From a virus, in IMG/VR virus record IMGVR_UViG_3300047480_000145, positions 1 through 40,321 of that record: a stretch of 40,321 nucleotides of DNA. One strand, written 5' to 3'. The notes beneath the pieces are model-generated. The model worked only from the letters and a program-made list of their open reading frames with translations. It had not been told where the DNA came from and ran no database searches. Numbering within the stretch: the first letter of the stretch is position 1; every line of letters starts with the position of its first letter. Of this stretch, positions 1,333 through 38,988 are shown in pieces. The translations under genes were made by a program, and so were the position numbers.

Positions 1333-2334
1333 TTAGACTGTTGGACGGCCTGAAGCCGCTGTTTCGATACGAACCAATGCTGGTGTGCGGTAAAGCGCCC
1401 AGTTGATGATTCCGTACCAGCCGACTGGATTGAAACGGTTGAAGCGGTCTTCTACCTTTCCAATTTCCATTCCTGGCTCCTTCCAGACAGCCTCAGCAAG
1501 AGCCTGTGCACCAACTACGTATGTGTGATACACACGTGTCTGTGCTGCTCCTGCGCCTGCGCCTGCCTGTGAGTTTGTTGCGTTCGCTGTCTCAATGAAG
1601 CGGACACCTTCCCATGAGCCAGTCTCTCCGCCGTATAGTGGCGCAGCATTCTGGTACTCATGTGGAGTACGCCATACGTTGTTACCTGTCTCTGTACGTA
1701 GGTCAACAGAAACTTCTGGGTGGATGTATGCAACAAACATTCCAGCACCCTTGTACTGCACTCCAGCGGAGCGCATCTTAGTAACAGCAGTACGGATTGC
1801 AGCAGACTTCATTGTGTCTCCTGCTGCAATTGTGTTCTTAGCAGCAACAGTTCCAACGCCTTCGTAGACGTTTGATACTGCGCCTGTTCCACCTGCAACG
1901 CGAACAATGTTTGCACCTGAATCCAACTTCGCAAGAACTGCGTTGTCGAGTGTCTTTGTCATGTTGAAAGCAACTGCATTAGCAACCCATGGGTCAATGT
2001 TTGCTAGTGACATCAAGTTAATCTTCTTAACTGGAAGTACTGAGCGACCTAGGTCTAGTTGTGGAACGTCAATGTATGTTGTTGCTGGTAGTGCTACTGA
2101 ATCTGGGTCAACAGTTTCAGACAGTGTTGCACCTGCAACGGAAGTATCAGCAATATCTGTATTGAACTGGAAACGGATTGAAGAACCCGCGTGTGTTAGG
2201 GAGCCGACCTTCTTGTCCGCGATTTCGCGGAACTTTGGAAGGACACGAAGATTAGTCTCGATAAGTTTATCGTAGGCTAATGTTACAAGATTGCTTCCTA
2301 ATCCAGTGGTTGTAGTGGTAAAGACATCTGCCAT
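1333..2334 (-). CDS. major capsid protein (HK97-fold type)
   Basis: This 333-aa protein follows a scaffold-like gene, the standard head-gene order, and has a strong ribosome site (AAAGGGGG). It begins MADVFTTTTTGLGSNL, then SIRFQFNTDIADTSVAGATLSE at about residues 50-75. A strand-rich TTYIDVPQLDLGRSVLPV follows, then a helical spine-like stretch. The later part, GMFVAYIHPEVSVDLRTE, and the end GIINWALYRTPALVRIETA resemble capsid proteins such as the N4-gp56 group. The capsid call rests on context and pattern, not a search. No separate decoration domain or cleavable N-terminal delta domain is obvious, consistent with a separate scaffold. Confidence 0.85.
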   Translation of the reverse strand: MADVFTTTTTGLGSNLVTLAYDKLIETNLRVLPKFREIADKKVGSLTHAGSSIRFQFNTDIADTSVAGATLSETVDPDSVALPATTYIDVPQLDLGRSVLPVKKINLMSLANIDPWVANAVAFNMTKTLDNAVLAKLDSGANIVRVAGGTGAVSNVYEGVGTVAAKNTIAAGDTMKSAAIRTAVTKMRSAGVQYKGAGMFVAYIHPEVSVDLRTETGNNVWRTPHEYQNAAPLYGGETGSWEGVRFIETANATNSQAGAGAGAAQTRVYHTYVVGAQALAEAVWKEPGMEIGKVEDRFNRFNPVGWYGIINWALYRTPALVRIETAASGRPTV

Positions 2335-2371: not shown

Positions 2372-2860
2372 TTAACCGAGATTTTTAATGATTGCCATAA
2401 TCTCTTCCTCAGACTCTGCATTGGCAATTGCCCGTGCAACGTCATCAGAATAAGTCGGAGCATCGGCAAAGTGAGTAGCGTCATCCTGCTTCTTTAAAGC
2501 ATAGATATCTGCGCTATCTACCTGCTTTTCCTTCTCAGGCACAAACCCAATTAAATCGCCATTCTCAGCAAGCCAGTTAGTAACTGCCTCTTCGCTGATA
2601 GCATCTAAGTCCTTAAGGACTAATCGGGCTGCCTTAGTATTTACTCCTTTTGTTTCCAGGATTTCTCGAACGAGACGCTCATTGGATTCCTTAGAGAACT
2701 TCGCTAGTTGCTCTTCAAGTTCCTTGATACGCTTTTCATCTGCTCGCTTGGCTTTGCGCAAGTTAGCGATACCGTCATCGCCCCGCGAGTTATGAGAACC
2801 ACTTAATTCGTTCTCTAGATTATCGTCTTCGTTTTCCCAGTATGTGTTTTCGTTGCTCAT
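2372..2860 (-). CDS. probable scaffolding protein
   Basis: This acidic 162-aa protein lies immediately upstream of the capsid gene in transcription order. The N-terminus is rich in Asn/Asp/Glu. Residues about 35-65 (KRADEKRIKELEEQLAKF) form a clear coiled coil, and the C-terminus is helical and acidic (SEEEIMAIIKNLG). This composition, size and position are typical of assembly scaffolds that occupy the prohead and leave or are degraded before packaging. The Ntn-hydrolase encoded at 11561-12130 could be the degrading enzyme, which is inference. Confidence 0.75.
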   Translation of the reverse strand: MSNENTYWENEDDNLENELSGSHNSRGDDGIANLRKAKRADEKRIKELEEQLAKFSKESNERLVREILETKGVNTKAARLVLKDLDAISEEAVTNWLAENGDLIGFVPEKEKQVDSADIYALKKQDDATHFADAPTYSDDVARAIANAESEEEIMAIIKNLG

Positions 2861-4458: not shown

Positions 4459-5726
4459 TATGCCATCAATCCAAACGTGCGAAGAATCTCAACGGCATAA
4501 CCTGATGCTTCTTCGCGTGCACCTGGTGACTTGAGCCATAGTTCTTTTGTCTTAGGGCTGGTACGTAATAGTTTTTCATATTCACGAATACTCATAACTC
4601 CAGATTTCTGTGCACCTGTAGCGTCCTTGTTAGCAAGTGCTGCCTGAATATCCTCATCAAAAATACTGATTGTGTTATCTGGCAAGCCAAGCAATCTACC
4701 CTTGAAGTAGGCATACTGATTAGCGATATCAGATGGCTTAACGCCCTCATCAATTAGGCTAGAGATGTTTCCGTAGAAACCTTTAGCCATACTCTTAATG
4801 CCATTTTTCGCTGAGTCAATATCAGCCTTACCACTAGGAGTAAATACTCCCATTACCTTATCAAGGGCTTGCTTTGTATCTAGTCTGATTCCATAAGATG
4901 CAGCAAACTCCTTAAGTTCCATAACATTGCTTGCTACTTCACCCTTACCTGTTCCTAGTTTTTCTAGGTCAGTTCCCTTGATTGCTGGCTTAATGATGTT
5001 TGCCTTGATACGAGAGTAATCATCTGCATCTAGGTATTCACCAACAGTAACTGTCTTGCCGTCTTTGCCAGTAGTCTGCTTAACTAATGCAGCCTTTTCT
5101 TCCTTATTGACTGCATTGTAGTAGTCAGTCTTTTCAGCAGCAGTGGCTCTACGCCCAAGCATTGAATAGAAGTAATCATCAATATCTTGGTCTGTATCTA
5201 TCTTACTGGTTAGGTTTAATCCAGAACCACTCTTTGGTCCAGTCTGATTAGCAGCAACTGCAAGATTAAGGTACTTATCAAAACTCTGGTCAATAAGGAT
5301 TCCGCTATCTTGAAAATCCATAACTGTCTGAACAGATACATTGCTTGCCGCTTCTGTAATAGCACGGGCTAAAGCAATTCTATCCTTAGTATCAAACTCT
5401 GCCTTTTGCATATAACCAGCGCTATACAAGCGTTGACGTAAATACTCAACACCTTTGCCAGACTGAGCATCTTGAATATAACGGCGCTGAACAGCCTCAG
5501 CACTCATTACTTCATAGTCACCATTATTGTCAATGTAAAGATAAACACGTCCTGGGATTTTTGCATTTTCTGTTCCAGTAAGAACCCAAGAGTTGCCTTC
5601 TTTAACTACTTGATAAGGCGCTGCTCCGCCACCAAAATCTTCAGTCATATCCTGACGGGTTTGATTCTTACCTGAAGTCTTACCAACTTTGCCAGTGTTA
5701 GCGGCAAATACATCTGGTGATGACAT
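4458..5726 (-). CDS. probable internal virion protein (422 aa)
   Basis: The TAATG overlap with the 1708-aa gene supports coupled translation and perhaps stoichiometric use. After a Gly/Lys-rich start there is a beta-rich stretch (VVKEGNSWVLTGTENAKIPGRVYLYIDNNG). The rest is helical with no membrane segment. No family was recognised. Its place between two other large, apparently virion-related genes and its lack of catalytic motifs suggest a structural role in the virion interior or injection apparatus. This is context-based inference. Confidence 0.6.
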   Translation of the reverse strand: MSSPDVFAANTGKVGKTSGKNQTRQDMTEDFGGGAAPYQVVKEGNSWVLTGTENAKIPGRVYLYIDNNGDYEVMSAEAVQRRYIQDAQSGKGVEYLRQRLYSAGYMQKAEFDTKDRIALARAITEAASNVSVQTVMDFQDSGILIDQSFDKYLNLAVAANQTGPKSGSGLNLTSKIDTDQDIDDYFYSMLGRRATAAEKTDYYNAVNKEEKAALVKQTTGKDGKTVTVGEYLDADDYSRIKANIIKPAIKGTDLEKLGTGKGEVASNVMELKEFAASYGIRLDTKQALDKVMGVFTPSGKADIDSAKNGIKSMAKGFYGNISSLIDEGVKPSDIANQYAYFKGRLLGLPDNTISIFDEDIQAALANKDATGAQKSGVMSIREYEKLLRTSPKTKELWLKSPGAREEASGYAVEILRTFGLMA

Positions 5727-8700
5727 TATCGGACCTCCATTGAATATGTATCACGGGAGTAGAAACCTAAGATTGGTGCGAACACTGCTCGGTTTGCCTC
5801 TCTGATTGCTGGGTCTAGTTGAACTAAATCATTTAATATCTGCTCAACTTGTGCCTTCTTGGCACGCTTGAGGTCAGTAAAGTTCCAAATCTTTCTATTC
5901 TCTGGGTCCTCTGAGAAGGATATAAACTCACGAATAAGTGAGGTTACAGTTCCCATGTTCTTGCGAACCTGTCTTGAGATAGGAGTTGTTGGGTCTGAGA
6001 TAGCCTGCTCCATTGAAGAAAGGATTTCCTTTTCAGTAGATACTTCAAAGCCACCTGTTTCAAGGGCTTTACGTAGTACTGGATATCCAGCCTTTAATGC
6101 ATTACGGCGTGCTGTAGCCTGATTGATAATTCCCTTACGGGTTTCAGGAGCAGCAGTAGTAGCAAGCAGTGCTCGCTCTTCACGCTCGATATCAAAGTAA
6201 GCCTGCTTAGCAGTGGCAATAGATACATTGTCTAGATACTTTTCAAGGTCAGGCAGTTTAATTAATCCTTGTGCTTCTAGCCAAGTGTATGCATCTGCTG
6301 TGTAATCACCAGTCTGTGGTCCAAAGATATAGGCTGCTTCGCCGTATGTCTTTAAGAATGACTGGTTATTAGCAGCCCACTTATACATCTGGTCAGTCTT
6401 GCCAATGGCTATCTTTGTAGACTTCTCATTACGAGAGACTGTGTAGATAATCTTGCGTGGGTTTTTACCCACGAATGTAGCAACTGCCAACTCATAAGGG
6501 TCTGTTAAGAAATCACCTTCAGTCTTAGAGATACCAGCCAAGATATCGTAAAACTCTGCACGCATATTAGTAATGCCAGTAGCCTTGATGTAGTCAGGAA
6601 CACCCTTGCTCTCACGCAATGTAGGCGAGATAGGACTAATCATTCCAAAGAAAGCACGTGCTGCTAGCACATTATGTGCCGCAATCTTAACAGTCTTTAG
6701 GTATTCAACCTTCTGAGCGTCTGTTGCATTTTCTGGCAACTGTACTTCTGGTCCACCAAATGCCTGTAGATAGGCAATAGCCTGGAATGCAGCAGTAGTT
6801 TCCTGACGATTCATCTCATCTATATCAATAGCACCTGCTGTACCAGCACGGCTAATAGTTTCTAGATTCTGTAGGAACAATGGCATAAGCGCTTTGCGCA
6901 AATCCATGTTATCGCCAATGTTACCTAGCGCCCATGAGTCATACTGGTTAGCAAAGTTAGTTGCCTTTTCGCCCAACTTACCTGGAATGTAGCCCAACAT
7001 ACCCTTGATTCCAAGGAATGATAGTGCTGCAACTGGGCCAGATAGTGATGGCTGTCCAGCATCAGGAGAGAATGATGGGTTAATCAAACGCAACTTAAGA
7101 GTAACATCATTAAACTGTGGAACCTTAAATGCTCCACCAGTAAACTTACGCACTACTGGTTCAACTGCTGTGTTGATAATAGTGTCAGTTGGTAGCACTA
7201 CGTATGGCTCGCCATTTTCATCTTGCATTACCTCACCACGGGCTGACAATCCCTGATGCGCTAGGCGCATACGATAGATAACTTGTAGTGGCTTCTCGCG
7301 GTTTAAGCGATAGTAACGTCTCCAGAAGTCCTCAGTAGCACGGTAGAAACGTGCAACTGTTCGAGTTGATAGAGCAAAGTTAGAACGAATTGCTGGGTTA
7401 TCTACATACTTTAGGATTGAATAGGATGCTTCATCCATTGCAATCTCTGTATAGCGCTTTGACGCAGCAAGTTCTGCCTGTTGGCGTAGTATTTCTTTGT
7501 TTGCTTTAGGAAACTCTTTAACACTTTCTTGATATAACTTATCAGCCAACTCACGTTGCAGCCCTTCATAGGCATCGCGATAGCGGCTATATGTTGTAAG
7601 AATTGCAGGCTGACGGAACAGACCATTTACCTGACGGTCCATCTGCTCCATGATTGCATTACCAAACTTGCCCCATGCAGTCTCAAGGTCAGCCTTATCC
7701 AAGAACTCTTCGAACTCAATAGAAGTATTGATTTCTCCAGTTGGCTGCTTACCAACAGTAGCCTTTTCAAACTCTTCAAACTTAATACGACCAGCAACCT
7801 TGCTCCATTTACCAGCAATCTGCTTGCCAGACTCCATCTCATAGCGAACTAGGTCGCCATGGTACTTAGCCATCAAATCAAATAGGTCCTGGTTAAAGGA
7901 CTTAGGACCACCATGGAATGTGTTACGCATATCCAATAGCATTGTCTCTACGTGAATACGAGCAATCTCTGCATCATTAATACCACGCTGACGTAAACTT
8001 ACGGAATCACCAAACAAAGAGTTAAACTCCTTGGTAACTGCTGCACGCTTAACAATAAACTGACGAGTTACATAGTCGTAATCTACACCTAGCGCCTTTA
8101 GCATATCTGTTCTAGCAGCAGCAAAGTCTTGCGCAGTTTTTAATCCATTGTTGTCAAAGAATACAACTGTTGGGTCTACTGTTGCGCCAGCCTTTAGGCT
8201 GTATTTATTAGCAGCAAACTGGCGATACCAAGTATCAAAGTGTGCAAGAGTTAAGTACTTATCATTAGTACGGCGCAGTTCTTCTGTTGATAATGCACGG
8301 AACTTACGACCAGTCTTAACTCCAACATCTTCTAGCGCTTTAGAAAGCGTAGATGGTGTAAAGATAGCATCAATAATCTCTTTATCGAATCTACCGCCAA
8401 GGGATGTTCGTGCAGATACAGACTGTGCCATTGAGTTGATAGTATCTGGATGGTGAATAAAGGCTTCTTTCAGCCACTTAAATCTGCTGACTGAATCATC
8501 TACACCAAACATTGAGTAGACACGGCTAACTGTTTCTTCACGAATCATTAGATGTGTTACTTCTTCAATTGGAATACCACGCTCAGCAGCAATCTGCTCA
8601 GGAATCGCGATACGCTCATCAATGCTGAGTTTCTCTTCTGCTCCACCCTTACGGAAAGCCTTATTAATACCACGCTTAATAGGACCAACAGATGACTTAG

Positions 8701-10852
8701 AACCAGTCAATGCTGTGGCTACATTCTTAAACTCCTGAACATCACGGATTCTGCGTAGTGATATTAGGTCATTAAGTGGTGCATTAAGTGCATACATAAA
8801 GGCTTCATCAATAGCAGAACGAATACCCAGACGTGGAAAAAGAGTAAGGATAGTCCAGAAGTTAACAAACTCTGAAACATACTTGTTGCGTGTAGCACCA
8901 TCAAAGAGTGCAGGGATAGAGTTCTTGCGGCGAGTAGATGCAGCAGTCTGAATAATTAACTCATACGGCAGAGCACCAATACCTTCTGCTACCTGGCTAG
9001 GCTGCACAATGCCACGGGCATTAAGAATAGGAGAGTCATTCTCAATACGTAGTACATGCTGACTAATATCATCAACAAACTCTGTTGGCACTTCAGTACG
9101 AGACACAGTAGTCATACCAGAACGATTATTGAAAGTCTTGTTTAGGATTTCTTCCATAATCTTGCGGCCTTCGGCAGTACCATGTAGTCCATATCGGTGC
9201 ATAATTGCTGCATACAGGTTACGAATCATAATAACCTGCTCATCAGCCTGTGAATCTAAGAAATGGAATGTCACAAAGTCTGCAATATCACGGGTAAATA
9301 CCTGTCGTGCTACAAGACGGAAGTTTTCAGCAGTCTTAACTGCATCTTCGCCAAGAAGAATCTGTGAACCAGCAGGATTTCGTGAAGCCTGCTTACCAAT
9401 AATCTCACCAATACGGCGTGCTCGCTTAATATCCTTATCAATATCTGCAAAGCGACCAATACCAGCGACATTAATACCCTTATCAATATCTTCACCAGCA
9501 GTCTTAAGAATGCTTACAGCATCTAAGCCTTTATTCTGTAGATTGGCTAAGCCAGTTCTAGTACTTTCATTAGCAGCACTAGGATTCATGATTGCATCTA
9601 CAACTTTACCAATGCCCATGCTGATATGACGCTCAGATTGTGCGGTTGCAACACCATTACGCATAAAAGTAATGCCGTCTACACGACCATTAAGTAGAAT
9701 GTTTACATTCTCAATCTCACCAAAGAACTCTTGGGCAGTTGCTGAGTTAAAAACTTTCTTCTTTGCAAGCAAACTAGTAATGTTAAAGTCGTTGAATCCA
9801 GGATAGTTCTGAACTAACTCACGATAAGCATTTGACTTTTCAATAGAACCCTTTTGTGCCTCAGCAAACTTCTTAATTGCTGGGCCAACTTGGTCATCCC
9901 ACAAAGACTTAACGCTTGGGTCTTCAAATGCTGTTTTAATTGCACCTTTAAAGTTCCCCTTGGCTGCTTGTTCGGTAATATTGTTTGCAACTTTTTGACC
10001 CTTAGTAGTAAAGGTTCCAATTTTAGTTAAACCACCAGTAACAAATGTCAATGGGTCAATAACTACCTGATACAAAGCATCAATACTTCCAGTTACACCA
10101 GTCTGATACTTGCCAGTTAGCACACGGGTAGTTAAATTACCGCTATTTGCTTGGTTGGCTGTGTATACCTTGCGGTAAATGTCACGACCTGGTGAGATAC
10201 CAGCAGCCTTAGTGTCAAAAATAATGTCAGCAAAACCTTTTTCATCATCAAAGGCTTTAGTAATAGCGGCAAGAATCTTTGGGTCTGGCTTTCCATAGGC
10301 TTCAATGATTTCGCCAGGAGTTTTACCAGATAGTAATCCTTGGGCTACAATAATATTCTCAGCACCATGCTTTTCTTTAGCACGTGCAATAGCACCTTTA
10401 TCCCAAGCATCGCGTCCATTGTATGCATCGTCCCAGGTTTGCTTAGAAAACGGGTCTGCACCCTGCTCGATTTGACGAGCAGCAACATAGCCAGTGTTTA
10501 ATGTCTTGCCATAAGCAACTGCAACCTTTAACTGTCCAATGATTGGGCTTGCTAATCCCTTAGCAACCTTACCTAGTACACCTAATCCACGGTCTAAAAG
10601 GTTAGGGTCTTCTTGAACAAACTTTGCGGTTGGGTAAAGAGCCTTAATGTTTGCTTGGGCTTCTTCAGTCAATGACTGAAACTCATTCTTTGCCCTCTTG
10701 TTATCTAGAGCACGGAGTTCTTTAGCCTTCTTTACTGTATAAGCAAGTTGCTCAACGGCAACCTTTTGCTCAAAAGATAGGTTAGCATTCTTCGCAGCAT
10801 TGTAAACGGCTGGATTAGTCTCACCTACAACTGGATTGATAATGCGTGCCAT
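5726..10852 (-). CDS. 1708-aa probable internal virion/ejection protein
   Basis: This is the largest gene in the window, coupled by TAATG at both ends. The product is mostly helical and Ala/Lys/Arg-rich, with no clear signal peptide, no Walker motif and only a few hydrophobic stretches (for example FVNFWTILTLFPRLGI near residue 670). Its length would suit a tape-measure protein. However, it lies between portal and scaffold, not among tail genes, and no tail tube or sheath genes are present. A large protein stored in the head and ejected with DNA, as in T7-like phages, fits better. I saw no lysozyme-type catalytic motif, but did not analyse every segment. Confidence 0.65.
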   Translation of the reverse strand: MARIINPVVGETNPAVYNAAKNANLSFEQKVAVEQLAYTVKKAKELRALDNKRAKNEFQSLTEEAQANIKALYPTAKFVQEDPNLLDRGLGVLGKVAKGLASPIIGQLKVAVAYGKTLNTGYVAARQIEQGADPFSKQTWDDAYNGRDAWDKGAIARAKEKHGAENIIVAQGLLSGKTPGEIIEAYGKPDPKILAAITKAFDDEKGFADIIFDTKAAGISPGRDIYRKVYTANQANSGNLTTRVLTGKYQTGVTGSIDALYQVVIDPLTFVTGGLTKIGTFTTKGQKVANNITEQAAKGNFKGAIKTAFEDPSVKSLWDDQVGPAIKKFAEAQKGSIEKSNAYRELVQNYPGFNDFNITSLLAKKKVFNSATAQEFFGEIENVNILLNGRVDGITFMRNGVATAQSERHISMGIGKVVDAIMNPSAANESTRTGLANLQNKGLDAVSILKTAGEDIDKGINVAGIGRFADIDKDIKRARRIGEIIGKQASRNPAGSQILLGEDAVKTAENFRLVARQVFTRDIADFVTFHFLDSQADEQVIMIRNLYAAIMHRYGLHGTAEGRKIMEEILNKTFNNRSGMTTVSRTEVPTEFVDDISQHVLRIENDSPILNARGIVQPSQVAEGIGALPYELIIQTAASTRRKNSIPALFDGATRNKYVSEFVNFWTILTLFPRLGIRSAIDEAFMYALNAPLNDLISLRRIRDVQEFKNVATALTGSKSSVGPIKRGINKAFRKGGAEEKLSIDERIAIPEQIAAERGIPIEEVTHLMIREETVSRVYSMFGVDDSVSRFKWLKEAFIHHPDTINSMAQSVSARTSLGGRFDKEIIDAIFTPSTLSKALEDVGVKTGRKFRALSTEELRRTNDKYLTLAHFDTWYRQFAANKYSLKAGATVDPTVVFFDNNGLKTAQDFAAARTDMLKALGVDYDYVTRQFIVKRAAVTKEFNSLFGDSVSLRQRGINDAEIARIHVETMLLDMRNTFHGGPKSFNQDLFDLMAKYHGDLVRYEMESGKQIAGKWSKVAGRIKFEEFEKATVGKQPTGEINTSIEFEEFLDKADLETAWGKFGNAIMEQMDRQVNGLFRQPAILTTYSRYRDAYEGLQRELADKLYQESVKEFPKANKEILRQQAELAASKRYTEIAMDEASYSILKYVDNPAIRSNFALSTRTVARFYRATEDFWRRYYRLNREKPLQVIYRMRLAHQGLSARGEVMQDENGEPYVVLPTDTIINTAVEPVVRKFTGGAFKVPQFNDVTLKLRLINPSFSPDAGQPSLSGPVAALSFLGIKGMLGYIPGKLGEKATNFANQYDSWALGNIGDNMDLRKALMPLFLQNLETISRAGTAGAIDIDEMNRQETTAAFQAIAYLQAFGGPEVQLPENATDAQKVEYLKTVKIAAHNVLAARAFFGMISPISPTLRESKGVPDYIKATGITNMRAEFYDILAGISKTEGDFLTDPYELAVATFVGKNPRKIIYTVSRNEKSTKIAIGKTDQMYKWAANNQSFLKTYGEAAYIFGPQTGDYTADAYTWLEAQGLIKLPDLEKYLDNVSIATAKQAYFDIEREERALLATTAAPETRKGIINQATARRNALKAGYPVLRKALETGGFEVSTEKEILSSMEQAISDPTTPISRQVRKNMGTVTSLIREFISFSEDPENRKIWNFTDLKRAKKAQVEQILNDLVQLDPAIREANRAVFAPILGFYSRDTYSMEVR

Positions 10853-11286
10853 TAGTACCCATATTCAGCAAGTGTTGAATAAATAAGTTCGGCTTCTCCA
10901 GTTGGGTCAAACTGCGCAATCTTGCGCATAGTTACAGAGATAGGCTCTCTAGTTGAAGGACGATTAATAATCTCGCTACCTGGGCCATCTCCAATATTAA
11001 TACCAGCAGTAATAGGCTCGCTAGGGCGATTAGTTGGTGCCATCAATTCTGTTGGCATTTCCATTTGAACTAATCCTGAATCACCCATTGCAGCAGAACC
11101 CATAGTGTTTCCAGCCATTGGGGCTGCTACTTGATTTGAGTAGGTTTCTCCACCTTGTCCATATGGAAGTCCTGAAATGTATTGAGCACCTTGCGTTGGT
11201 CCCCCGTCAGTGCGTTGAGAAAGAGCGCCAGGGCCTGACACTGCTGCTGGGTTAGAAGGCGCACGATATCCACCGCGTTCTGCCAT
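10852..11286 (-). CDS. 144-aa Gly/Pro-rich late protein
   Basis: The TAATG overlap with the preceding 92-aa gene places it in the same translationally coupled chain. The first 100 residues are low-complexity and rich in Gly, Pro, Ser, Asn and Met, so probably unstructured. The last 35 (TMRKIAQFDPTGEAELIYSTLAEYGY) look like a short helical docking segment. I recall similar layouts near portal genes of actinophages, without known function. It may be a head-assembly adaptor or a flexible virion component. Confidence 0.6.
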   Translation of the reverse strand: MAERGGYRAPSNPAAVSGPGALSQRTDGGPTQGAQYISGLPYGQGGETYSNQVAAPMAGNTMGSAAMGDSGLVQMEMPTELMAPTNRPSEPITAGINIGDGPGSEIINRPSTREPISVTMRKIAQFDPTGEAELIYSTLAEYGY

Positions 11287-11564
11287 TATTCATCTCCTTC
11301 ATCTTCCATTAATTCATCATCTTCATCTGCTGGCGGCTCGCCAAAGGATTCTTTGTTATATTCTTTAGCCATACGCATCATGCCGTATGCATTCCAAGGA
11401 GTCATCTCTGGTGAGACCTCTGTGTGCAAGTAGCGGTTTCCATCGTAGTCTGCCCATTCTGTAATAATTAACCAGTTAGCGCAGATGTAGTTAGACCCTT
11501 CAGGGTCTTCCTCTACTAGAACTCGTAGTGCTTGCTCTATCTTCTCCCTGAACTTCTCACTCAT
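11286..11564 (-). CDS. 92-aa acidic protein, conserved-looking, unknown function
   Basis: ATG 11564 overlaps the stop of the protease-like gene (ATGA). The N-terminal half has a helix and a compact segment YICANWLIITEWADYDGNRY. The C-terminus is strongly acidic (PADEDDELMEDEGDE). I recall similar small proteins in actinobacterial phages. Acidic tails of this kind could interact with the Lys-rich late proteins or with a capsid intermediate. No function can be assigned. Confidence 0.65.
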   Translation of the reverse strand: MSEKFREKIEQALRVLVEEDPEGSNYICANWLIITEWADYDGNRYLHTEVSPEMTPWNAYGMMRMAKEYNKESFGEPPADEDDELMEDEGDE

Positions 11565-12130
11565 TTTGCGTACTGAATCTTAGTTATAATTGGTGGGCTG
11601 GTATAAATATCCCAAACACAAGCAATCTCAATTGCCTTGCGGATTATTTTTTCCGCTTGCTCTGGAGTTTTCGCTTTATCAATGTGTAATGCTTCCATAA
11701 CTCCAACGGCAACATCGCCACCATTACCACCGTAATAGATACCGCGATTATCACGGTCCCAAGAGTAATCTTGAAATACAGGATAAAGGATTCCGCGAAT
11801 GCTGATAATAAAATCTGAGTCTTGCGCTGCTGCATCTCCGTCTTCTTTCATGTCATAACCTGCATCAATGAAAGTTTTACGCATAGCAGGAATAAACTTT
11901 TGCGTCATAAACAAATCTAAGTTCTCCGACTTAGTTGGTTTAGGTGGTACCCAGCCAAACTGTAATATGTTTGAACCACGGCTAGCACCAGAACCTGCAA
12001 TTAAGTAACCATTGTTTTCAATAATCTTATGAGTAGCAATCGTCATTGGACGACCACCTTCATCAGATGCTCTTGAATCACAACCTATTACAGACCAGCC
12101 ATCACCTTGAAAGGCAGCAAGCGTTGTCAT
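11561..12130 (-). CDS. proteasome-beta/HslV-like Ntn hydrolase, candidate prohead protease
   Basis: After the initiator Met the protein starts Thr-Thr-Leu, as in HslV and proteasome beta subunits, where the exposed N-terminal Thr is the nucleophile. Counting that Thr as residue 1, Asp17 lies in VIGCDSR and Lys34 in ATHKI. These match the conserved Asp17 and, shifted by one, Lys33. A Gly/Ser-rich AGSGASRG follows. The C-terminal KAIEIACVWDIYTS strongly resembles the family's kAleIA...diYT segment. The 189-aa length is about that of an HslV subunit. Met-Thr is a good substrate for Met aminopeptidase, so self-processing may be unnecessary. It lies directly after the portal, where phages usually encode the maturation protease. 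The fold call is fairly strong; the maturation role is inference. Confidence 0.75.
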   Translation of the reverse strand: MTTLAAFQGDGWSVIGCDSRASDEGGRPMTIATHKIIENNGYLIAGSGASRGSNILQFGWVPPKPTKSENLDLFMTQKFIPAMRKTFIDAGYDMKEDGDAAAQDSDFIISIRGILYPVFQDYSWDRDNRGIYYGGNGGDVAVGVMEALHIDKAKTPEQAEKIIRKAIEIACVWDIYTSPPIITKIQYAK

Positions 12131-12145
12131 TGTCCCCTACCTTCT

Positions 12146-13885
12146 TTATCGTCTATTAACTGTTCGTGCCGATGCGTTAGCCGCTCCACCCATACTTAGG
12201 CTGGAGAGTAAACTTTGTAGTCCTTGTGGCGAAGGAGCGCCACCTGCTGGAGACGCGGCGGGAGCAGGGGACGGTTGCTCAACCATAGGTGCTTCCCCAG
12301 CAGGTGGTAATTCTGGAGCGAACACATCATTGATTGCGTCCTCAATCTGAGTGCCCTTCTGGCGCATACGGATAACTTCTGCCATCTTCTTAACAATGAC
12401 AGTTGGGTCTCCGCCTTGAGCAATCATTTGTGGGATTGCCTGCGCAGATGCATTAAGCGAAGCGATAAGCGCTGAGCGCATCTCTTCTACTTCAATCTTT
12501 TCTTGTTCTTGCGATACGTTTACGCCAAATGGCAGTTCACGCATTGCTAAATCCTTTGAGATAAGTTTGCCACCAAGGGCTTGTAGCATGAAGATAAGTC
12601 CCTGTGCTGGGTTAAGCCCAGCCAACATGCCATAACGTACATCTGCTGAGTAGTCACCCTTAATGTCCTTAGAAGGCTTGTACTCAATTGCGTATGGGCT
12701 ACCTGAATCAATACCACGAATAGACTTAGTTTCATCAAATACAACTTCGTCCACCTCAAAGCACAGTGAAATAACTGTCTTTAATGCAGAAGCAAAGATT
12801 GCTTGTGCTGACTTTACCTGTGTATCGAATCCACCCATAAGTGCTTGCACACCTTGACCAGTAATAATTGAAGCATCAATATTACCAGTACGAGATTCTG
12901 GGTAACGAGTTCCTGTGCGTAATTCTGCTTGTAGTATTTGTTGCTGATTAAATGCACCAGCAGGAACTGGAAGTTCCACTCTACGGATACCAGCAGGATT
13001 CTTAGTACGGATAATTCCGTCTCCACCAAAGGAGAACTCATTAACATCATCGGGAACAATAAGTGGTGATTGAACAGACTTCTCTGCTGCTTCCATTGCA
13101 AGTAATGCAAAACGATTGCGAAGCAACTGAATGCCTAGAACATCATCAAACTGTCCACGCATTTCACCATCAACTGTAGGTCGCTTAGCGACTACAACCA
13201 TCATCTTGCCAATAGGATTCTTGGCACGAGAGATAACTAGGTTTTGACGGTCTGGAACATAAATCATTGATTGATGCTTGTCGTAATAACGAACAATATC
13301 AAACCTTGCATTCATGTTCTGGTCGTAACCTTCACGACCTAACAAAGCATCAGTATGCTCTGGGAACTGAGCAATCAGTTCTGACAGTGGCATAGAGTAA
13401 CGCTTTGCAAAAGCAACGCAGCGTCCGTAGCGGTCAAATTCAGGATACGCCCCGACAGGACTTTCTACGCGAATACGCGGCAACTTTGCTTCCATGTCCA
13501 ATTCAATAATGAACGGGACAAACCCAAATGTGATGTACCAGTCTGAACCTGTGTACATCTGTACTTGTAAATCTGAATTGTAAAAATAGTTAGCAGCAAT
13601 ACGGGTACGGTTGTCTGCTGCTTTACGAGCACGGTCTTTAACCTGGCTTACTACAGAACAGTTAACCGCTGGCAGTGGTGCCATTACCTCTGATACGTCA
13701 CGTGCAACAATGTCAATAAAGTTTGCAACTACGTTTGCATCTACACCATCTGGAAAGAAGTCAGGGTATACGCTAGCAATTTCTCCTTGACGGACTAGCA
13801 TAACGTCTGTCTGACGACCATCGCGCTCTACTGCACGCTCCTTCAGAGATTCAACTCTGGCAAAGATTTGCTTATCAGTTAGCAT
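12146..13885 (-). CDS. portal protein
   Basis: This 579-aa protein follows the terminase and two small genes. Its N-terminus is helical and contains VMLVRQGEIASVYPDFFP. A middle segment reads DWYITFGFVPFIIELD and RIRVESPVGAYPEFDRYGR. A long helical clip/stem-like region and an Ala/Gln/Met-rich C-terminal part (ALIASLNASAQAIPQMIAQGG) follow. The end is a Pro/Ala/Gly-rich flexible tail. The length, composition and gene order TerL-portal-protease-scaffold-capsid support a portal, the dodecameric DNA gate of the head. Not verified by search. Confidence 0.85.
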   Translation of the reverse strand: MLTDKQIFARVESLKERAVERDGRQTDVMLVRQGEIASVYPDFFPDGVDANVVANFIDIVARDVSEVMAPLPAVNCSVVSQVKDRARKAADNRTRIAANYFYNSDLQVQMYTGSDWYITFGFVPFIIELDMEAKLPRIRVESPVGAYPEFDRYGRCVAFAKRYSMPLSELIAQFPEHTDALLGREGYDQNMNARFDIVRYYDKHQSMIYVPDRQNLVISRAKNPIGKMMVVVAKRPTVDGEMRGQFDDVLGIQLLRNRFALLAMEAAEKSVQSPLIVPDDVNEFSFGGDGIIRTKNPAGIRRVELPVPAGAFNQQQILQAELRTGTRYPESRTGNIDASIITGQGVQALMGGFDTQVKSAQAIFASALKTVISLCFEVDEVVFDETKSIRGIDSGSPYAIEYKPSKDIKGDYSADVRYGMLAGLNPAQGLIFMLQALGGKLISKDLAMRELPFGVNVSQEQEKIEVEEMRSALIASLNASAQAIPQMIAQGGDPTVIVKKMAEVIRMRQKGTQIEDAINDVFAPELPPAGEAPMVEQPSPAPAASPAGGAPSPQGLQSLLSSLSMGGAANASARTVNRR

Positions 13886-14727
13886 TATTTAATTCCCTTT
13901 TTTGCAAGATAAGCAGATGCTTTCTTTGCTATATCGGCTGCGTCTTTTTTGCTTATATTAGTAACACCAGTACCATGCTTTTTAAAAAAAGCATCTGCAA
14001 TATCATCATACTGTTTAAATGCATCACGTTGTTCTTTTGTCATTTCACCAAGAATTTTTTTAATATTACTTAGTTCATTAGTTAATGGTTTATCTAGATT
14101 AGGCAAACGTAATTCTTTATCTCGTTCTGCTGGAGTTTTTCTAGAACGTGCTTGCTCTGCTGCTTTCATGGCAGCCTTACGTGAAGCATCTAGTTTTCTA
14201 TCTTTAGGTAGCGCAGCCTTTGCTCGTTCAGTTGCAGCAGATGGTTTAGCAACCTGAACACTTGGACCTCTTTTAGGCCCAGCAACTGTTGTACCTTTTG
14301 CAGCAGTCCCTCTAGGTAGCAATGGCTTAAGCGCTTTCGATACTCTTTCTGAACGTTCTTTTGCACGTAGTGCTCGAACATCTGCTGGAGTAACGCGGTC
14401 CTTCTGCATTGACTTAGTTACAGTCTTGGTATCAGGCTTCTTCTTATAAAGATTATAAAGTTCTTTAGCAGGGTCTACCTTTGGTGCTCGAACTCCAGTA
14501 CTTCCTTCACGTGATACAACACGCTTAGGAGGATTTGCTACATCTGGTCTGCGATTAGCACGACCAAGTTTAGGTGCACCTGTTTTCATTTCAGTCTTGA
14601 TAAGAGACTTAATTTCTTTTTCAGTAACCTTCTTTGCCGCTGCCTGCATAAGGCGTTTCTTTGCTGCGTTAGAGACGGCAGCACGGGCTATCGCTGCTAC
14701 TATTGCTGGTGCTAATGGTGCTGGCAT
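13885..14727 (-). CDS. 280-aa Lys/Ala-rich protein, possible DNA-binding virion protein
   Basis: The gene overlaps the portal start (TAATG). The N-terminus is an Ala-rich helix (APAIVAAIARAAVSNAAKKR). The rest is dominated by Lys, Arg and Ala without strong hydrophobic core, and only the last 70 residues look folded (NIKKILGEMTKEQRDAF). The charge and low complexity are H1-like. It shares style but no clear alignment with the adjacent 235-aa gene. Possible roles are packaging aid, DNA-compacting virion protein, or RNA binding. No family was recognised. Confidence 0.6.
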   Translation of the reverse strand: MPAPLAPAIVAAIARAAVSNAAKKRLMQAAAKKVTEKEIKSLIKTEMKTGAPKLGRANRRPDVANPPKRVVSREGSTGVRAPKVDPAKELYNLYKKKPDTKTVTKSMQKDRVTPADVRALRAKERSERVSKALKPLLPRGTAAKGTTVAGPKRGPSVQVAKPSAATERAKAALPKDRKLDASRKAAMKAAEQARSRKTPAERDKELRLPNLDKPLTNELSNIKKILGEMTKEQRDAFKQYDDIADAFFKKHGTGVTNISKKDAADIAKKASAYLAKKGIK

Positions 14728-14736
14728 CTCTACTCC

Positions 14737-15444
14737 TTACTTCTTCTTTGGTCTTAGTTGTGTTGCGCTTTTTTTCTTTGGTGTAGGCTTAAACTTACGA
14801 ACACTACTTGCTTCATTAACAGGAGTTCTACGGCTCATAACCTGAACCATGTCTGGCTGACCATAGTAATAATCATTCAATGTTGCTGTTTCTTCTTTGT
14901 TAAGTGTTACGCTTTTTGTTCTTGAACGTATTTCTTTGTCTGATTTAGAACCAACTTTATTTGTTTTCTTGTTAGCGGCTCTTAAACCGCGAGCATTTGC
15001 TTTTGCTTCTGCTCTAGAAAGAGGATTAGCAAGTCTGTCATTTTGTCTAGTTACTTGTAGTACACCACCAGAACGAGTAGTTTTTCCCGATGGAGATACA
15101 GCATCTTTAATCTTTAGATTTTTGCTAACATCCATATCTCTACCATAACGATACTTAGCATCTGCTCGTCCTACATTTGGAATTACTCTATTTGCAGACC
15201 TTCCAGATACGGCATAGTCTCCTGCTTGGCGTGAAGACTTAGCAGCCTTAGCCGCTTTAGTAGCCTTCGCTGCGGTAGCAGCAACCTTGGCAACGCGACC
15301 TGCTGGAGTAAATGATGCTGCAATAAGAGCAGCACTTCCTAACTTTTTAAGTCCAGCATTAGTAACTTTAACTGGATTGTTTCCACCAGCACGGGCCTTA
15401 GCCTGTGCAATCTGCTGCTTAGTAGGCTTTGTTGTTTTGGCCAT
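14737..15444 (-). CDS. 235-aa basic protein downstream of terminase
   Basis: This is the first gene after the large terminase. It has an N-terminal Lys/Gln/Ala segment, a short hydrophobic Ala-rich helix (LGSAALIAASFTPAGRVAKV), a run of AAKATKAAKAAKSS, and a Lys-rich C-terminus ending RPKKK. The centre is Arg/Lys/Ser-rich and probably disordered. A small-terminase role is conceivable from position but no HTH is visible, and the terminase itself carries one. A DNA-binding structural protein is equally possible. Confidence 0.55.
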   Translation of the reverse strand: MAKTTKPTKQQIAQAKARAGGNNPVKVTNAGLKKLGSAALIAASFTPAGRVAKVAATAAKATKAAKAAKSSRQAGDYAVSGRSANRVIPNVGRADAKYRYGRDMDVSKNLKIKDAVSPSGKTTRSGGVLQVTRQNDRLANPLSRAEAKANARGLRAANKKTNKVGSKSDKEIRSRTKSVTLNKEETATLNDYYYGQPDMVQVMSRRTPVNEASSVRKFKPTPKKKSATQLRPKKK

Positions 15445-15453
15445 GTTGGTTCC

Positions 15454-17340
15454 TTATCCGTATTGTTCTTCCCATTGCTCTTGCATGAGTTGGTCTAGAT
15501 TGACAGTACCTCTTTGGGACATTTGTGCTCTTGTCGCCCAGCGGTTCTGTGTGTATTTACTTAATGTTGTTGTCTGTTGCATAAACTCACGACACTTTAG
15601 GAACGCAAACCACATAGCCATCACGCAGTCAGTCTTACCTCTGGTGTCTGGCTTCCAAGTAATGAGTTGTTGTACTAACGCTTTCAATCCCTCTGAGCCA
15701 TCAGTAGATGGAAACTCAATCAGGTTGTTCTTTTGGAAGGTTCCATCGCGCATAGTGCCAAGCATTGTTGACATAGATGCAACACCGTGTCCTACATCCC
15801 ACTTATTCTTTTGAGTAAAGTGAGGTTTTAATGTCGTTCCGTATTGTGCTAGCCATTGGCGTAAGTCATCATCTAACTCATAGGCTTTCTGGTGTGCGTT
15901 AATCTCAACACGGATTTCATTGGGACGATACTTGATGGTTAGTTCTTCTAGCATCGCTCGAATTTTTTGTGGTGTTGGGTCTGCCATGTTCTCGCAGTCC
16001 AGCACGTAAATCTTTCCATCAACTCGGTTATAGGTCATCGCTACGAATGCAGCATGGCCTCGCCCCATAGCGGGGTCAAACCCAATTACTGTATAGCCCT
16101 GAACATGGGTCGGATGTCCCACCGCGCCTGGTTTTAATACACCACGCTTACGGGAACCCTTGATACACGACTGAACCAGCGCGGGTGGGAAGATGGAATC
16201 TTCTGCGACATCCTCCTGCTGGTAGACCAAAGCCCATGTTCCAGCAGTTACTTCGCTTCTGCGCTTAAATAATGTTTGTCCATCCCACTTGGGATATAGC
16301 CCATGCTCGTCAGGTGTATCCTCATCTCCGTCCCAAGGACGGTCAGATACAGGCCAAAGGGTTACCCAGTCTTGCGGTTTCTCCCCATACTCCAATACAG
16401 CAGGCATAGCCATGTAAGTAAAAGGGCACCTACCGCCCGACCAATACTTCGGGTCGCGTAGTTCTTTATAGAAATCAGTCGCCGCAATTCGTGTCCCTAC
16501 GATTAGTAACTTACCATTTTTACCCAGACGGGTAATAACTTCCTTTTGCAACCAGTCAATCTGCTTCTCATACTCATGAGCGTTAGCGGTTGTAATGCAG
16601 TCATCCAAGATAATCAAGTCAGCACGGGCACCGTAAATCTGACCACCCATACCCAGTGCCTGAAGGGTTGGGTCCTTTTCGCTAGAGTCGCGAGCATCGC
16701 CACCCAAGTAGACAGTATCTACACGCCAGGTATCTGAATCTTCTTTCCAACCCCCATCTGGTCCATAGGTGGTTTGTAGTTTCAACCATCTTGGGTGGGA
16801 TAGGCGCTGCTTAATTGAGTACACAAACTCTCTAGCCTTGTAGAGGGTCTTACTCACCACAATGATTCGCACATTCGGATTTAAGGCAATTCTGTAGGTA
16901 GAGTAGTTAACTGTGATAACTGTACTCTTGGCGTGTTCTGGGGGCACGTTTACCAGTAATCGGTTCGGCTCACCCTTTTCATAGGTCATAGACTCATGAA
17001 GCCAAGAAGGGTCCTGACCCTCTAGTAGGTCAATCCAGTCCGCATGGTGCGGAAATACCTTTGAGTCCAGGAAAATCTCAGAAAACTGTGGGAAGGAGAT
17101 TTCATCCTTTGCTACCCCAAGGGCTTTAGTGGATTTGTTCTTAGCATCATCCTTAGCCTCTTCGAGGTCACGGGCAAACTTTTTATCGCGGCTTAGCCAG
17201 ATACGCAGGGTATCTGCTTTATAGCCAATCTGCCCCATCGCTTTAGGCGCACTCATACCCTCAGCAACCAAGGCTATTACTTTTGCCTTTGCCGCCGCAG
17301 TAGCCTCAGTACGAGGGTTGTTGCTTTTGCTGAATGTCAT
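15454..17340 (-). CDS. terL: terminase large subunit with N-terminal HTH
   Basis: This 628-aa packaging motor opens the late operon. Residues about 12-60 form an HTH of the small-terminase/transposase kind (GMSAPKAMGQIGYKADTLRIW). The ATPase follows: Walker A VPPEHAKS at 132-139, Walker B LIILDD at 242-247, and a coupling motif LLIVGTR at about 278-284. The RNase H-like nuclease begins with IGFDPAMGRG (Asp422), has EVRIEIN-type acidic residues near 476-480 (read as IRVEIN), and a late Asp in TDCVMAMWF. No separate small terminase gene was found. The fused HTH may supply DNA recognition, which is inference. Confidence 0.93.
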   Translation of the reverse strand: MTFSKSNNPRTEATAAAKAKVIALVAEGMSAPKAMGQIGYKADTLRIWLSRDKKFARDLEEAKDDAKNKSTKALGVAKDEISFPQFSEIFLDSKVFPHHADWIDLLEGQDPSWLHESMTYEKGEPNRLLVNVPPEHAKSTVITVNYSTYRIALNPNVRIIVVSKTLYKAREFVYSIKQRLSHPRWLKLQTTYGPDGGWKEDSDTWRVDTVYLGGDARDSSEKDPTLQALGMGGQIYGARADLIILDDCITTANAHEYEKQIDWLQKEVITRLGKNGKLLIVGTRIAATDFYKELRDPKYWSGGRCPFTYMAMPAVLEYGEKPQDWVTLWPVSDRPWDGDEDTPDEHGLYPKWDGQTLFKRRSEVTAGTWALVYQQEDVAEDSIFPPALVQSCIKGSRKRGVLKPGAVGHPTHVQGYTVIGFDPAMGRGHAAFVAMTYNRVDGKIYVLDCENMADPTPQKIRAMLEELTIKYRPNEIRVEINAHQKAYELDDDLRQWLAQYGTTLKPHFTQKNKWDVGHGVASMSTMLGTMRDGTFQKNNLIEFPSTDGSEGLKALVQQLITWKPDTRGKTDCVMAMWFAFLKCREFMQQTTTLSKYTQNRWATRAQMSQRGTVNLDQLMQEQWEEQYG

Positions 17341-17455
17341 CTATGTCCCTAAATTTGTGCCAGACCGTCAAGACTGTGACGGACGCATATTGGCTTATCT
17401 GGCTTTCCCATGGGTCGGTACCCACGCTGACTAATCAACGATAGCGGTTACCTAG

Positions 17456-17526
17456 CATACCCCCAAGGACTCGAACCTTGACAAACAGTGTTGGAGACTG
17501 TTGTGCTGCCATTACACTAGAGGCAT
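17456..17526 (-). tRNA. tRNA-Trp (anticodon CCA)
   Basis: A complete 71-nt cloverleaf can be drawn by hand. The acceptor 5' strand ATGCCTC pairs with GGGGTAT (two G-U pairs) and the discriminator is G. The D stem is GTGT/GCAC around AATGGCA. The anticodon stem is ACAGT/ACTGT with loop CTCCAAC, anticodon CCA. The T stem is CAAGG/CCTTG with loop TTCGAGT. No CCA end is encoded. A1-U72 and G73 agree with bacterial tRNA-Trp. It lies 115 bases ahead of the terminase start and is probably co-transcribed with the late genes. Tryptophan supply for late proteins is the obvious possible role. Confidence 0.92.
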
Positions 17527-28696: not shown

Positions 28697-29341
28697 ATGT
28701 ATGTAGATGAGTACCAACAAATGGTAGTAGCCCTTGCTGCTGAGTATCATCGGAAGTATCCGATTACAGAACAGTTAGATATACAGCAGGTACTGTGGCT
28801 ATGGTTTGTTTCTCATCCACAAAAATACAAAGAGTGGTCAGCCTTAGAACAAAAAGACAAAGACAAGTTGATAGCCAGGTCGCTGCGCAATGCAGCAATT
28901 AAGTATTGCGAACGAGAGAAAGCAAGAAAGATTGGCTACGAATTGTTAGACCTGTATTACTATGACTCATCAGTTATCGAAGCCTTCCTACCATCCATCA
29001 TTGCAGAATCATATGAGATTCCAGTTGCTATCAAAGACCTTAACTACAAGTTCTCAAAGGGTGAAAGTTCAGACACCAATAACTGGTTAGTACTGCGCTC
29101 AGATATAGCCACTGCCTACTACAGATTATCAGATGCAAAACAAAAGGTGTTACAGATTAAGTACTCAGCAGAGAATGTCGAGTGGACACAGTTAGCAGAG
29201 GAACTATCTACTACACCAGATGGTGCACGTATGAAAGTGCAGCGAGCAATAAGTTCTTTGATTAGAAATCTGGGTGGCTATAAGCCACAGATAGATGAAG
29301 ACAGTTTAGCAGAGGTAGATGATGACGAATCAGGAGAATGA
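28697..29341 (+). CDS. sigma-factor-like transcription protein
   Basis: This 214-aa product has two helical parts. An N-terminal region-2-like segment is DIQQVLWLWFVSHP, AARSL-type helix (LIARSLRNAAIKYCEREKARK). A C-terminal region-4-like HTH includes YRLSDAKQKVLQIKYS, then WTQLAEELSTTPDGARMKVQRAISSL. This spacing is that of ECF/sigma-70-like proteins, as is the alternating L-S-x-x-x-R/K-V-L pattern. The acidic tail (DEDSLAEVDDDESGE) is unusual. It may redirect host RNA polymerase to late promoters. Similar proteins occur in actinophages. Promoter recognition is not shown. Confidence 0.65.
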   Translation: MYVDEYQQMVVALAAEYHRKYPITEQLDIQQVLWLWFVSHPQKYKEWSALEQKDKDKLIARSLRNAAIKYCEREKARKIGYELLDLYYYDSSVIEAFLPSIIAESYEIPVAIKDLNYKFSKGESSDTNNWLVLRSDIATAYYRLSDAKQKVLQIKYSAENVEWTQLAEELSTTPDGARMKVQRAISSLIRNLGGYKPQIDEDSLAEVDDDESGE

Positions 29342-34669: not shown

Positions 34670-35803
34670 TTATAACTCCGCAATCATCTCGATAAAACCT
34701 GTTTGTGCATTTTGTACCGATACAGCCGCCGCCTGCCCAGCAGTCAAACCACTAGCAACTGTTGTAAAGAATTGAACTACATCAGGCGCAAATCTATCTC
34801 CCGCAATAGTTGCTGCAGTCGTTAAATTACTGGTGTGCTGAATAACAAAAGTATTTGCTGCACTAAATCCCATTGTTGGGCTTACCCGCATTGTTACAGG
34901 TAAAGGCATAATCGCAGTTGTTTGAGTTGTGCTGTAATTAAAACCTAACGAATAAGGCTGGTAACCAACACTTCCTACCTTGCGTTGGTAGTACCTCTGG
35001 CAGGCTTGTAACTCCCCTTGGATAGTTCCACCATTAGTGCGGAAAGGTAATGCCACGCTGCCGACGTCTATCTGCACACCTGTTAGTTCAAACCAATCGT
35101 TAGCCCCAGCAGTGCCAGTTGGAAGGTAACCAATCTGTAATCCTATTTGGGTTGCAGTTGAAGTCAAAGTTCCAGTATAAGTAAACCGCTGCCAAGTGGT
35201 TGTTAGGGTTGCGCTGGCTGAAATAGCGTTGGTAACACTCGTAAAACCAACCAATGAGTTTTGGTCTGTACCTGTTCCAGTAACTAAAGTAGCCGATAAT
35301 ATGTTTGATGCTGCTGAGTAGTTGGCACCTGCTCTAGCATAAAAAGAAAGTGTTACAGTTTTTCCAGCAAAAGGAATTGAATTAACTGTTTCTAAATCTG
35401 TCGTTACATAAACGACATTGGCAAAAGCATCTCCTGAGTTTCTTTGAGCGCGTACGCAATATTGAATATTAGGCAAATTGGTTGTGTCGTTTGTAGCCTG
35501 TCTTGACCAAGTTCGACCTGTTGTAGTTGAATATATATGCCATCTGTCAGGACCATAAATATTTGTACCATTGCCATTTGTAAAAGAAGTTCCACGCTGC
35601 CACACCTGCAAAGATGAATTGATAATTGGATTAGCCTGAACAGTTCCCGCCGTATAGCGCAAGCCTGTTGCGGTGGAAGCATCGGCTACGATTGTCTCTC
35701 CGTTGGCCCCAACTCCCAAGACTCCAGATAGGTTGGTGCCATTGCCAACGGTTAAGTCACCTTTGGCTGCATTGGCGGTTGCATTACTTCTTGCCTTTGT
35801 CAT
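34670..35803 (-). CDS. tail fibre 2 (377 aa), receptor-binding candidate
   Basis: The N-terminal ~55 residues form a short repetitive shaft (KGDLTVGNGTNLSGVLGVGANG). From about residue 58 on it parallels the last ~300 residues of fibre 1: IINSSLQVWQRGTSF, GPDRWHIYS, AGKTVTLSFYARAG, GELQACQRYYQRKVG, MRVSPTMGF and a GFIEMIAEL end. That module has a carbohydrate-binding look (a beta-sandwich with VTLSF). It probably binds a host surface glycan. The start overlaps the 47-aa gene (TAATG). Confidence 0.8.
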   Translation of the reverse strand: MTKARSNATANAAKGDLTVGNGTNLSGVLGVGANGETIVADASTATGLRYTAGTVQANPIINSSLQVWQRGTSFTNGNGTNIYGPDRWHIYSTTTGRTWSRQATNDTTNLPNIQYCVRAQRNSGDAFANVVYVTTDLETVNSIPFAGKTVTLSFYARAGANYSAASNILSATLVTGTGTDQNSLVGFTSVTNAISASATLTTTWQRFTYTGTLTSTATQIGLQIGYLPTGTAGANDWFELTGVQIDVGSVALPFRTNGGTIQGELQACQRYYQRKVGSVGYQPYSLGFNYSTTQTTAIMPLPVTMRVSPTMGFSAANTFVIQHTSNLTTAATIAGDRFAPDVVQFFTTVASGLTAGQAAAVSVQNAQTGFIEMIAEL

Positions 35804-38900: not shown

Positions 38901-38988
38901 ATACAACTAGAGCGGTAGTATCAGCAGCACCAAGAGAAGCGGTAAGAGTTGTTTGCTGTGAACGGGATGAGTATTTTCTTGTTGTCAT
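35956..38988 (-). CDS. tail fibre 1 (1010 aa)
   Basis: The layout is: N-terminal virion-attachment-type segment (1-110); a 10-residue repeat region (VTTGKLADGS units, about 141-210); a segment with KGYVDTQITN; 15 Ala/Ser/Thr heptads (435-539) suggesting a trimeric coiled coil; a linker with WSGSAWAEISS; and a receptor module of about 300 residues. The last begins IINGDFGIWQRGTSF near 700 and contains TVTLSFWAKAD and GELAMCQRYYFR. That module is related to fibre 2. It is likely the main side fibre. No depolymerase motif was recognised. Confidence 0.85.
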   Translation of the reverse strand: MTTRKYSSRSQQTTLTASLGAADTTALVVSGSALLGGVSVSAGQTYTVVIDPDTALEEIIDVTAVPATNTLTIVRGIETGGTGQAHSAGAVVRHMAIGRDFREANEHIENTTTAHGLTIANVLETTDTNMITTTMLQASSVTTPKIADLNVTTGKLADGSVTTAKIADLNVTTGKLADSAVTSAKIADGTIVNADINSAAAIDKTKIAGTAVTVADTGTVTSTMIENGTITNTDINASAGIAYSKLSLTGSVTSSDIADGTIVNADISPTAGIALSKLATDPLARANHTGTQAASTISDFDTQVRTNRLDQMAAPSAAVSLNSQKVTNLATPTVSTDASTKGYVDTQITNLIGAAPSTLDTLAEISAAINSDPNLYATLNNGKLNRDGTQAMTGALPMGTFKITGMGDPTNAQDAATKNYVDTGAASQVAAAAASATAAAASAVAADASATSASGSATSATASASSATSSASSATASASAAATSATNAANSATAASNSASTASTQATNAANSASAASTSETNAASSASAASTSATNAAASLDSFDDRYLGAKASPPSTDNDGNALLTGALYWNTSTNKMYVWSGSAWAEISSSADIISYKYTVAGGATSVSGADDNGLTLAYTVGKEQVYINGVLQVRGFDYVATTGSSITGISAMLANDIVTVLAFTAFVVADTYTQAQADAKFFQTANAFLAGKNKIINGDFGIWQRGTSFAAISGGAYSADRWVHGQDGSGNVTISQQTFTPGTAPVAGYEGTYFLRAAVTTTGTATYLEETQRIEDVRTFAGQTVTLSFWAKADSARSSIVYPVQVFGTGGSGVVVVATPSITYSTSWARYSFTFGIPSVSGKTIGAGSYLGFNIRTPHASGSTLDIWGVQVEAGSIATPFQTASGGSIQGELAMCQRYYFRSTGGATYSTYGAGYATLTTEAVFAIKLPVTMRVKPTALDYGNLGADFYNVSNTTFTNLVLNATGSGVDWARVIGTVASGLTQYRAYDITNANNTAGFIGFSAEL
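37372..37686 (-). repeat. 15 tandem 21-bp units (Ala/Ser/Thr heptads) in fibre 1
   Basis: Residues 435-539 of the fibre break into 15 seven-residue units such as SATSASG, SASAAST and SATNAAN, without interruption. At DNA level this is a degenerate 21-bp repeat. Unit number could change by recombination or slippage and so alter shaft length. Confidence 0.8.
38359..38568 (-). repeat. 30-bp tandem units encoding ten-residue repeats in fibre 1
   Basis: Residues 141-210 are built of ten-residue units; the first five (VTTPKIADLN, VTTGKLADGS, VTTAKIADLN, VTTGKLADSA, VTSAKIADGT) are close copies and the last two weaker. Alternating two unit types suggests a 20-residue double repeat that may form a beta-prism or helical shaft. 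Confidence 0.75.

Follow-up and report, generated by a model that had tools for sequence, protein, structure and literature searches.

A predicted proteasome-like threonine peptidase in an allele-exchange slot behind the portal gene of a phage late operon, probably distinct from a head-maturation protease

Of the 22 new proteasome homologs reported by Fuchs, Alva and Lupas (2021, PMC8665760), two, PPH and AAH, were found to be common in phages; neither a function nor an informative gene context was reported for the phage proteins, and no AAH was found in Actinobacteria-specific phages. For BPH, of which solved structures are available (5ovs, 5ovt, 5ovu; PMC5777263), the pore loop has been proposed to serve in substrate recognition, a partner unfoldase being absent. 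A literature search for phage HslV in connection with prohead or portal did not find a functional study. Here we analyze a gene of this superfamily from a freshwater phage, IMG/VR record IMGVR_UViG_3300047480_000145, using the whole stretch of 40,321 nucleotides (hereafter, the window) and related contigs. To the phage proteasome homologs catalogued in 2021, this group adds a fixed slot in the late operon, exact exchange of alleles and natural deletions.

The gene occupies positions 11561..12130, exactly the interval indicated by an earlier sequence-only reading of this DNA, which left the strand unstated; it is encoded on the minus strand, as are all the features of the gene and of the late operon given below, and the plus strand is stop-rich in this interval. 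The product consists of 189 amino acids (MTTLAAF..., in full MTTLAAFQGDGWSVIGCDSRASDEGGRPMTIATHKIIENNGYLIAGSG...KAIEIACVWDIYTSPPIITKIQYAK). In the 15-nt gap between the portal stop and the peptidase start there is a Shine-Dalgarno-like AGGGG (12134..12138), from which the peptidase would be translated independently of the portal, and the TGA that ends the peptidase gene shares bases with the ATG of o92, which follows it (ATGA). The Met-Thr-Thr start, the Asp17 and the Lys at 33/34 that had been pointed out by the sequence-only reading are indeed present, and the first Thr, the Asp and the Lys prove to be invariant in 124 of 124 unique homologs. These three residues are encoded by the codons for Thr2 (12125..12127; Thr1 of the mature protein and the predicted nucleophile), Asp18 (12077..12079; mature Asp17) and Lys35 (12026..12028; mature Lys34, which is equivalent to proteasome Lys33 and is displaced by a one-residue insertion); equally invariant is Gly48 (11987..11989; mature Gly47, of the oxyanion hole). 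At the position aligned with proteasome Ser129 and HslV Ser124, 115 of the 124 unique homologs have Ser or Thr, whereas the window peptidase (Asn136, 11723..11725) and its nearest relatives have Asn, which might lower activity in this sub-branch. Between helix 2 and the following strand lies a BPH-like acidic pore loop, AGYDMKEDGDAAAQDS (11816..11863), and all peptidase alleles have an acidic loop at this place. Within alleles, dN/dS is 0.05–0.10 for the peptidase compared with 0.09–0.12 for the portal; by this measure the peptidase is under strong purifying selection, as strict as that on the portal or stricter. Taken together with the fold, the conserved residues and the low dN/dS indicate that the product is a genuine member of the proteasome-like superfamily, an enzyme maintained by selection.

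The assignment to this superfamily was obtained along several lines. The PHROG 1040 profile ("peptidase HslV family") matches the window peptidase with an HMM E-value of 8.7e-17; the single window sequence remains below the cut-off of the Pfam Proteasome family (E = 0.0034), and a profile built from 29 homologs retrieves BPH (5ovu) first, at 5e-9, followed by HslV at 2.6e-7. The AlphaFold2 model (pLDDT 87.9, pTM 0.86) contains the Ntn four-layer core with the full set of helices H1–H4, and a Foldseek search with this model yields more than 1000 matches at E <= 0.001, the best match in the PDB being BPH (E = 4e-10, TM about 0.74). For a second allele, about 30% identical to the first, the AlphaFold2 model (pLDDT 89) has the strands and helices in unchanged order. 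The agreement of PHROG 1040, the 29-homolog profile, AlphaFold2 and Foldseek bears out the proteasome/HslV-like Ntn fold proposed by the sequence-only reading, which had named a non-Ntn fold or an unconserved Thr as evidence to the contrary; the model is an Ntn fold, and the Thr is retained in 124 of 124 homologs, together with the equivalents of Asp17, Lys33 and Gly47. The open reading frame is thus predicted, from sequence and model, to encode a proteasome/HslV-type Ntn peptidase. The window peptidase was rejected as an HslV proper (14.7 bits against the TIGR03692 equivalog cut-off of 157.75) and as a PPH (189 amino acids compared with about 140, and helix H2 present at residues 71–89). As one part of the joint explanation that we favor, and with about even confidence in the whole, we regard it as a group-I proteasome homolog of the BPH/AAH-like kind.

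BPH is the best solved relative by both sequence profile and fold. The two proteins share the lack of a propeptide, the Thr1/Asp17/Lys33/Gly47 set, an acidic pore loop in the same place and the absence of an unfoldase partner; they differ in overall sequence (about 18% identity) and in the sequence of the pore loop, and the window protein is phage-borne. Full membership in BPH would also imply a heptameric double ring. AAH and PPH are likewise group-I and phage-associated, and the window subunit is compact as in AAH, but the fixed gene context of the window group contrasts with the lack of informative context in the published set. HslV has in common with the window peptidase the fold, the N-terminal Thr and, for most homologs, a GSGG-type motif, but the pore entrance of the window peptidase is acidic, not basic, and no gene for HslU or any other partner ATPase was seen among the late genes scanned. 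By HMM, the PHROG 1040 proteins of phages DSL-LC01, Pitbull, Pumpernickel, WaterT and pT24 belong to the same family, with the same active site where aligned; unlike in the window, the gene is located outside the head module in the PHROG 1040 genomes examined. When 84,980 genomes of bacteria and archaea were scanned, no relative was detected, so that, at this sensitivity, the peptidase families look phage-restricted; a search of plasmids returned only short matches of 37 residues.

The late operon begins with the terminase large subunit TerL (15454..17340), which is followed by two basic proteins, the portal (PHROG 104; 12146..13885), the peptidase, o92 (11286..11564; a small protein with an acidic tail, whose start overlaps the peptidase stop), the next conserved late gene o144 (PHROG 8200; 10852..11286) and a 1708-aa protein (5726..10852) that, on the basis of synteny with Beephvirinae gp9, is a probable internal or ejection virion protein. 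Further on come o422, o492, a candidate scaffolding protein (PHROG 7813, a family shared with Beephvirinae, with a weak scaffold-family match; 2860..2372) and the major capsid protein of the N4-gp56 family (2334..1333). A weak consensus scan of the portal–peptidase junction on its own strand found no promoter-like or terminator-like site. The peptidase gene directly follows the portal gene in 80 of 80 loci carrying the window-type allele and also in the second allele family, where one short contig was uninformative. In a scan of freshwater contigs that started from the portal, and was therefore not biased towards peptidase carriers, the peptidase was found in 116 of the 131 contigs with sufficient room, 8–154 nt after the portal match. 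The "prohead-protease position" ascribed to the gene by the sequence-only reading is accurate as far as the portal is concerned; the scaffold and the capsid, however, are encoded about 9 kb beyond the peptidase.

Portals that are 97–99.5% identical can be accompanied by peptidases that are 31–36% identical. The exchange is seen in two sister phages, L307 and L312, in which DNA homology stops at ATGACAAC(A), at the start and catalytic threonine codons, and restarts at CAGTACGCAAAATGA, at the last codons and the stop. Over about 20 kb and 14 late genes, the peptidase (31% identity) is the only gene replaced, whereas the other late genes are 87–99% identical, including TerL (98%), portal (99%), o92 (99%), o144 (98%), the large protein of the 1708-aa type (97%), scaffold (99%) and capsid (97%). 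On portal trees, well-supported branches require the two main alleles to have been switched at least 12 times and the peptidase to have been gained or lost at least five times. Contig mis-joins were rejected as the source of the swaps, since the w/c switch recurs in independent contigs of several backgrounds. The slot is filled in 11 of 13 peptidase-less loci, and in none of 197 peptidase carriers, by an unrelated small protein, K (82–89 amino acids with a basic, MPPRKK-like start and an acidic end). These counts take related contigs separately, and K is found in about four separate places in the tree; no known family was found for K. The loci with the K slot after the portal are L353, L359–L363, L372, L376, L381 and L394–L397. 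On the sequences compared, then, the peptidase locus is an allele-exchange slot behind the portal, a feature newly described here. Because the sister phages differ in the peptidase alone among the late genes compared, the function of the peptidase is open to experimental test.

The explanation that we favor, again at about an even level of confidence, is that the gene encodes an optional, late, probably ATP-independent, self-compartmentalizing threonine peptidase with a host-side target, which is maintained as alternative alleles. From knowledge of the family we infer that removal of Met1 would expose the Thr1 nucleophile and that the subunits would form a double ring with the active sites sealed inside. 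Given its acidic pore loop and the lack of any partner ATPase, the enzyme may need no ATP and may act on substrate proteins that are flexible or unfolded, as has been proposed for BPH. Made late and with BPH-like access control, it could remove a host or competitor protein, a role suggested by comparative genomics, and deeply diverged alleles in a single slot would suit a target that varies with the host, such as a defense, stress or regulatory protein. A target outside the virion accounts more easily than the head for an active site that is frozen while the body of the protein is replaced wholesale, for head proteins that stay unchanged and for an absence that is tolerated. More specifically, although here we regard the case as possible rather than likely, the peptidase may be a counter-defense or host-range factor: alleles that are about 31% identical and the non-enzymatic K are swapped as exact gene units, as might result from an arms race over a host target. 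Exchange alone is no proof of an arms race or of a host-facing role, since the phage group as a whole is mosaic, with the 1708-aa protein and o422 also differing sharply between close relatives. The host-facing reading also has to contend with the presence of the peptidase in 89% of the freshwater portal contigs and its constant adjacency to the portal, which could point to a task in the head that non-carriers accomplish by other means.

The most substantial alternative, which we nevertheless consider unlikely, is the use as a prohead protease that the sequence-only reading had proposed: a ring-shaped threonine peptidase in or beside the prohead would remove the scaffold or mature head proteins. 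In 116 of 131 contigs the gene sits immediately behind the portal, as the genes of many prohead proteases do, and conventional head maturation proteases (PHROG 193 and 15531; U9, U35 and S49 types) share this position, albeit with a different fold; the gene is co-transcribed with head genes, the scaffold is encoded by a separate gene, and no other protease was recognized among the late genes scanned. Against this, the peptidase is missing from 15 freshwater contigs whose portals are 72–81% identical. In the 14 of these that were inspected, small ORFs, o144 among them, come after the portal and are succeeded by the large protein, with no recognizable protease, and no peptidase homolog was found over the whole length of 11 of the 15 contigs, three of them 36–41 kb long. 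The Streptomyces Beephvirinae have a homologous head module, with TerL, portal and capsid 43%, 42% and 41% identical to those of the window and with the scaffold (PHROG 7813) and o144 (PHROG 8200) also shared, but the peptidase is present in none of four complete genomes and none of 68 Streptomyces-type portal contigs. No N-terminal prodomain is seen in the capsid protein, the capsid start is nearly the same in carriers and non-carriers, and carriers show no extension at the ends of capsid, scaffold or portal relative to non-carriers. The allele is replaced while scaffold, capsid and portal stay 97–99% identical. Finally, a recognized head maturation protease adjoins the portal in Arthrobacter phage Pitbull and Microbacterium phage WaterT, which also encode a distant Ntn homolog away from the head module; both genes are likewise annotated in DSL-LC01, although its "capsid maturation protease" was not confirmed by HMM. 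A prohead protease by position was accordingly rejected as the main reading. By these comparisons the peptidase is dispensable for this kind of head, even if cleavage of head proteins in carriers is still conceivable, and, despite what its position suggests, it is unlikely to be the head-maturation protease. Position alone is a poor ground for naming a prohead protease.

Distinctly unlikely, in our estimate, is that the peptidase is packaged together with the internal or ejection proteins, its substrates being the 1708-aa protein or, after ejection into the new cell, host proteins. The gene does lie between those for the portal and the probable ejection protein, and giant phages with ejection proteins are reported to cleave several head proteins by means of their prohead protease (PMC7411985); however, the 1708-aa protein remains 97% identical across the allele swap, and non-carriers retain a large protein in that place. 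We give still less credence, as a highly improbable reading, to the idea that the protein disturbs the proteasome or HslV of the host, for instance through co-assembly or competition with the host rings; counteraction of an actinobacterial proteasome was an alternative offered by the sequence-only reading. The window protein is itself a proteasome homolog, Streptomyces is the host of the nearest cultured cousins of the phage, and a 20S proteasome is common among actinobacteria. The fully conserved active site, however, goes beyond the needs of a decoy, and homologs occur in phages with Vibrio and Tenacibaculum as listed hosts, genera that are not known for a 20S proteasome. A non-peptidase Ntn activity, such as ligation of virion or host proteins, is barely credible: the superfamily does include the monomeric protein ligase connectase (PMC8665760), but all the helices H1–H4 of the ring-forming members are present in the model, which has no S3/S4 insertion, and the best matches are BPH and HslV.

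Several other features of these genomes were recorded. Under near-identical portals, the 1708-aa protein (window 5726-10852) occurs as two diverged types, whose identity to that of the window is about 31% and about 83%, respectively, which indicates that the late operon contains further exchange units. The two proteins between TerL and the portal (window 13885-15444) are very basic, Beephvirinae have an endolysin in that place, and part of the region is non-homologous between L307 and L312. Gly-Thr dipeptide repeats form a long stretch in the o492 homolog of L086 (ct2KA10; 15339-16931). A tRNA-Trp (CCA; window 17455-17526), a possible host marker, lies immediately upstream of the terminase gene, and the rightward early region encodes a sigma-factor-like protein (PHROG 354; window 28697-29341), which is a candidate switch for late transcription. 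The neighboring tail-fiber genes at 34670-35803 and 35956-38988 encode proteins about 36% identical in the C-terminal region, which suggests a duplication.
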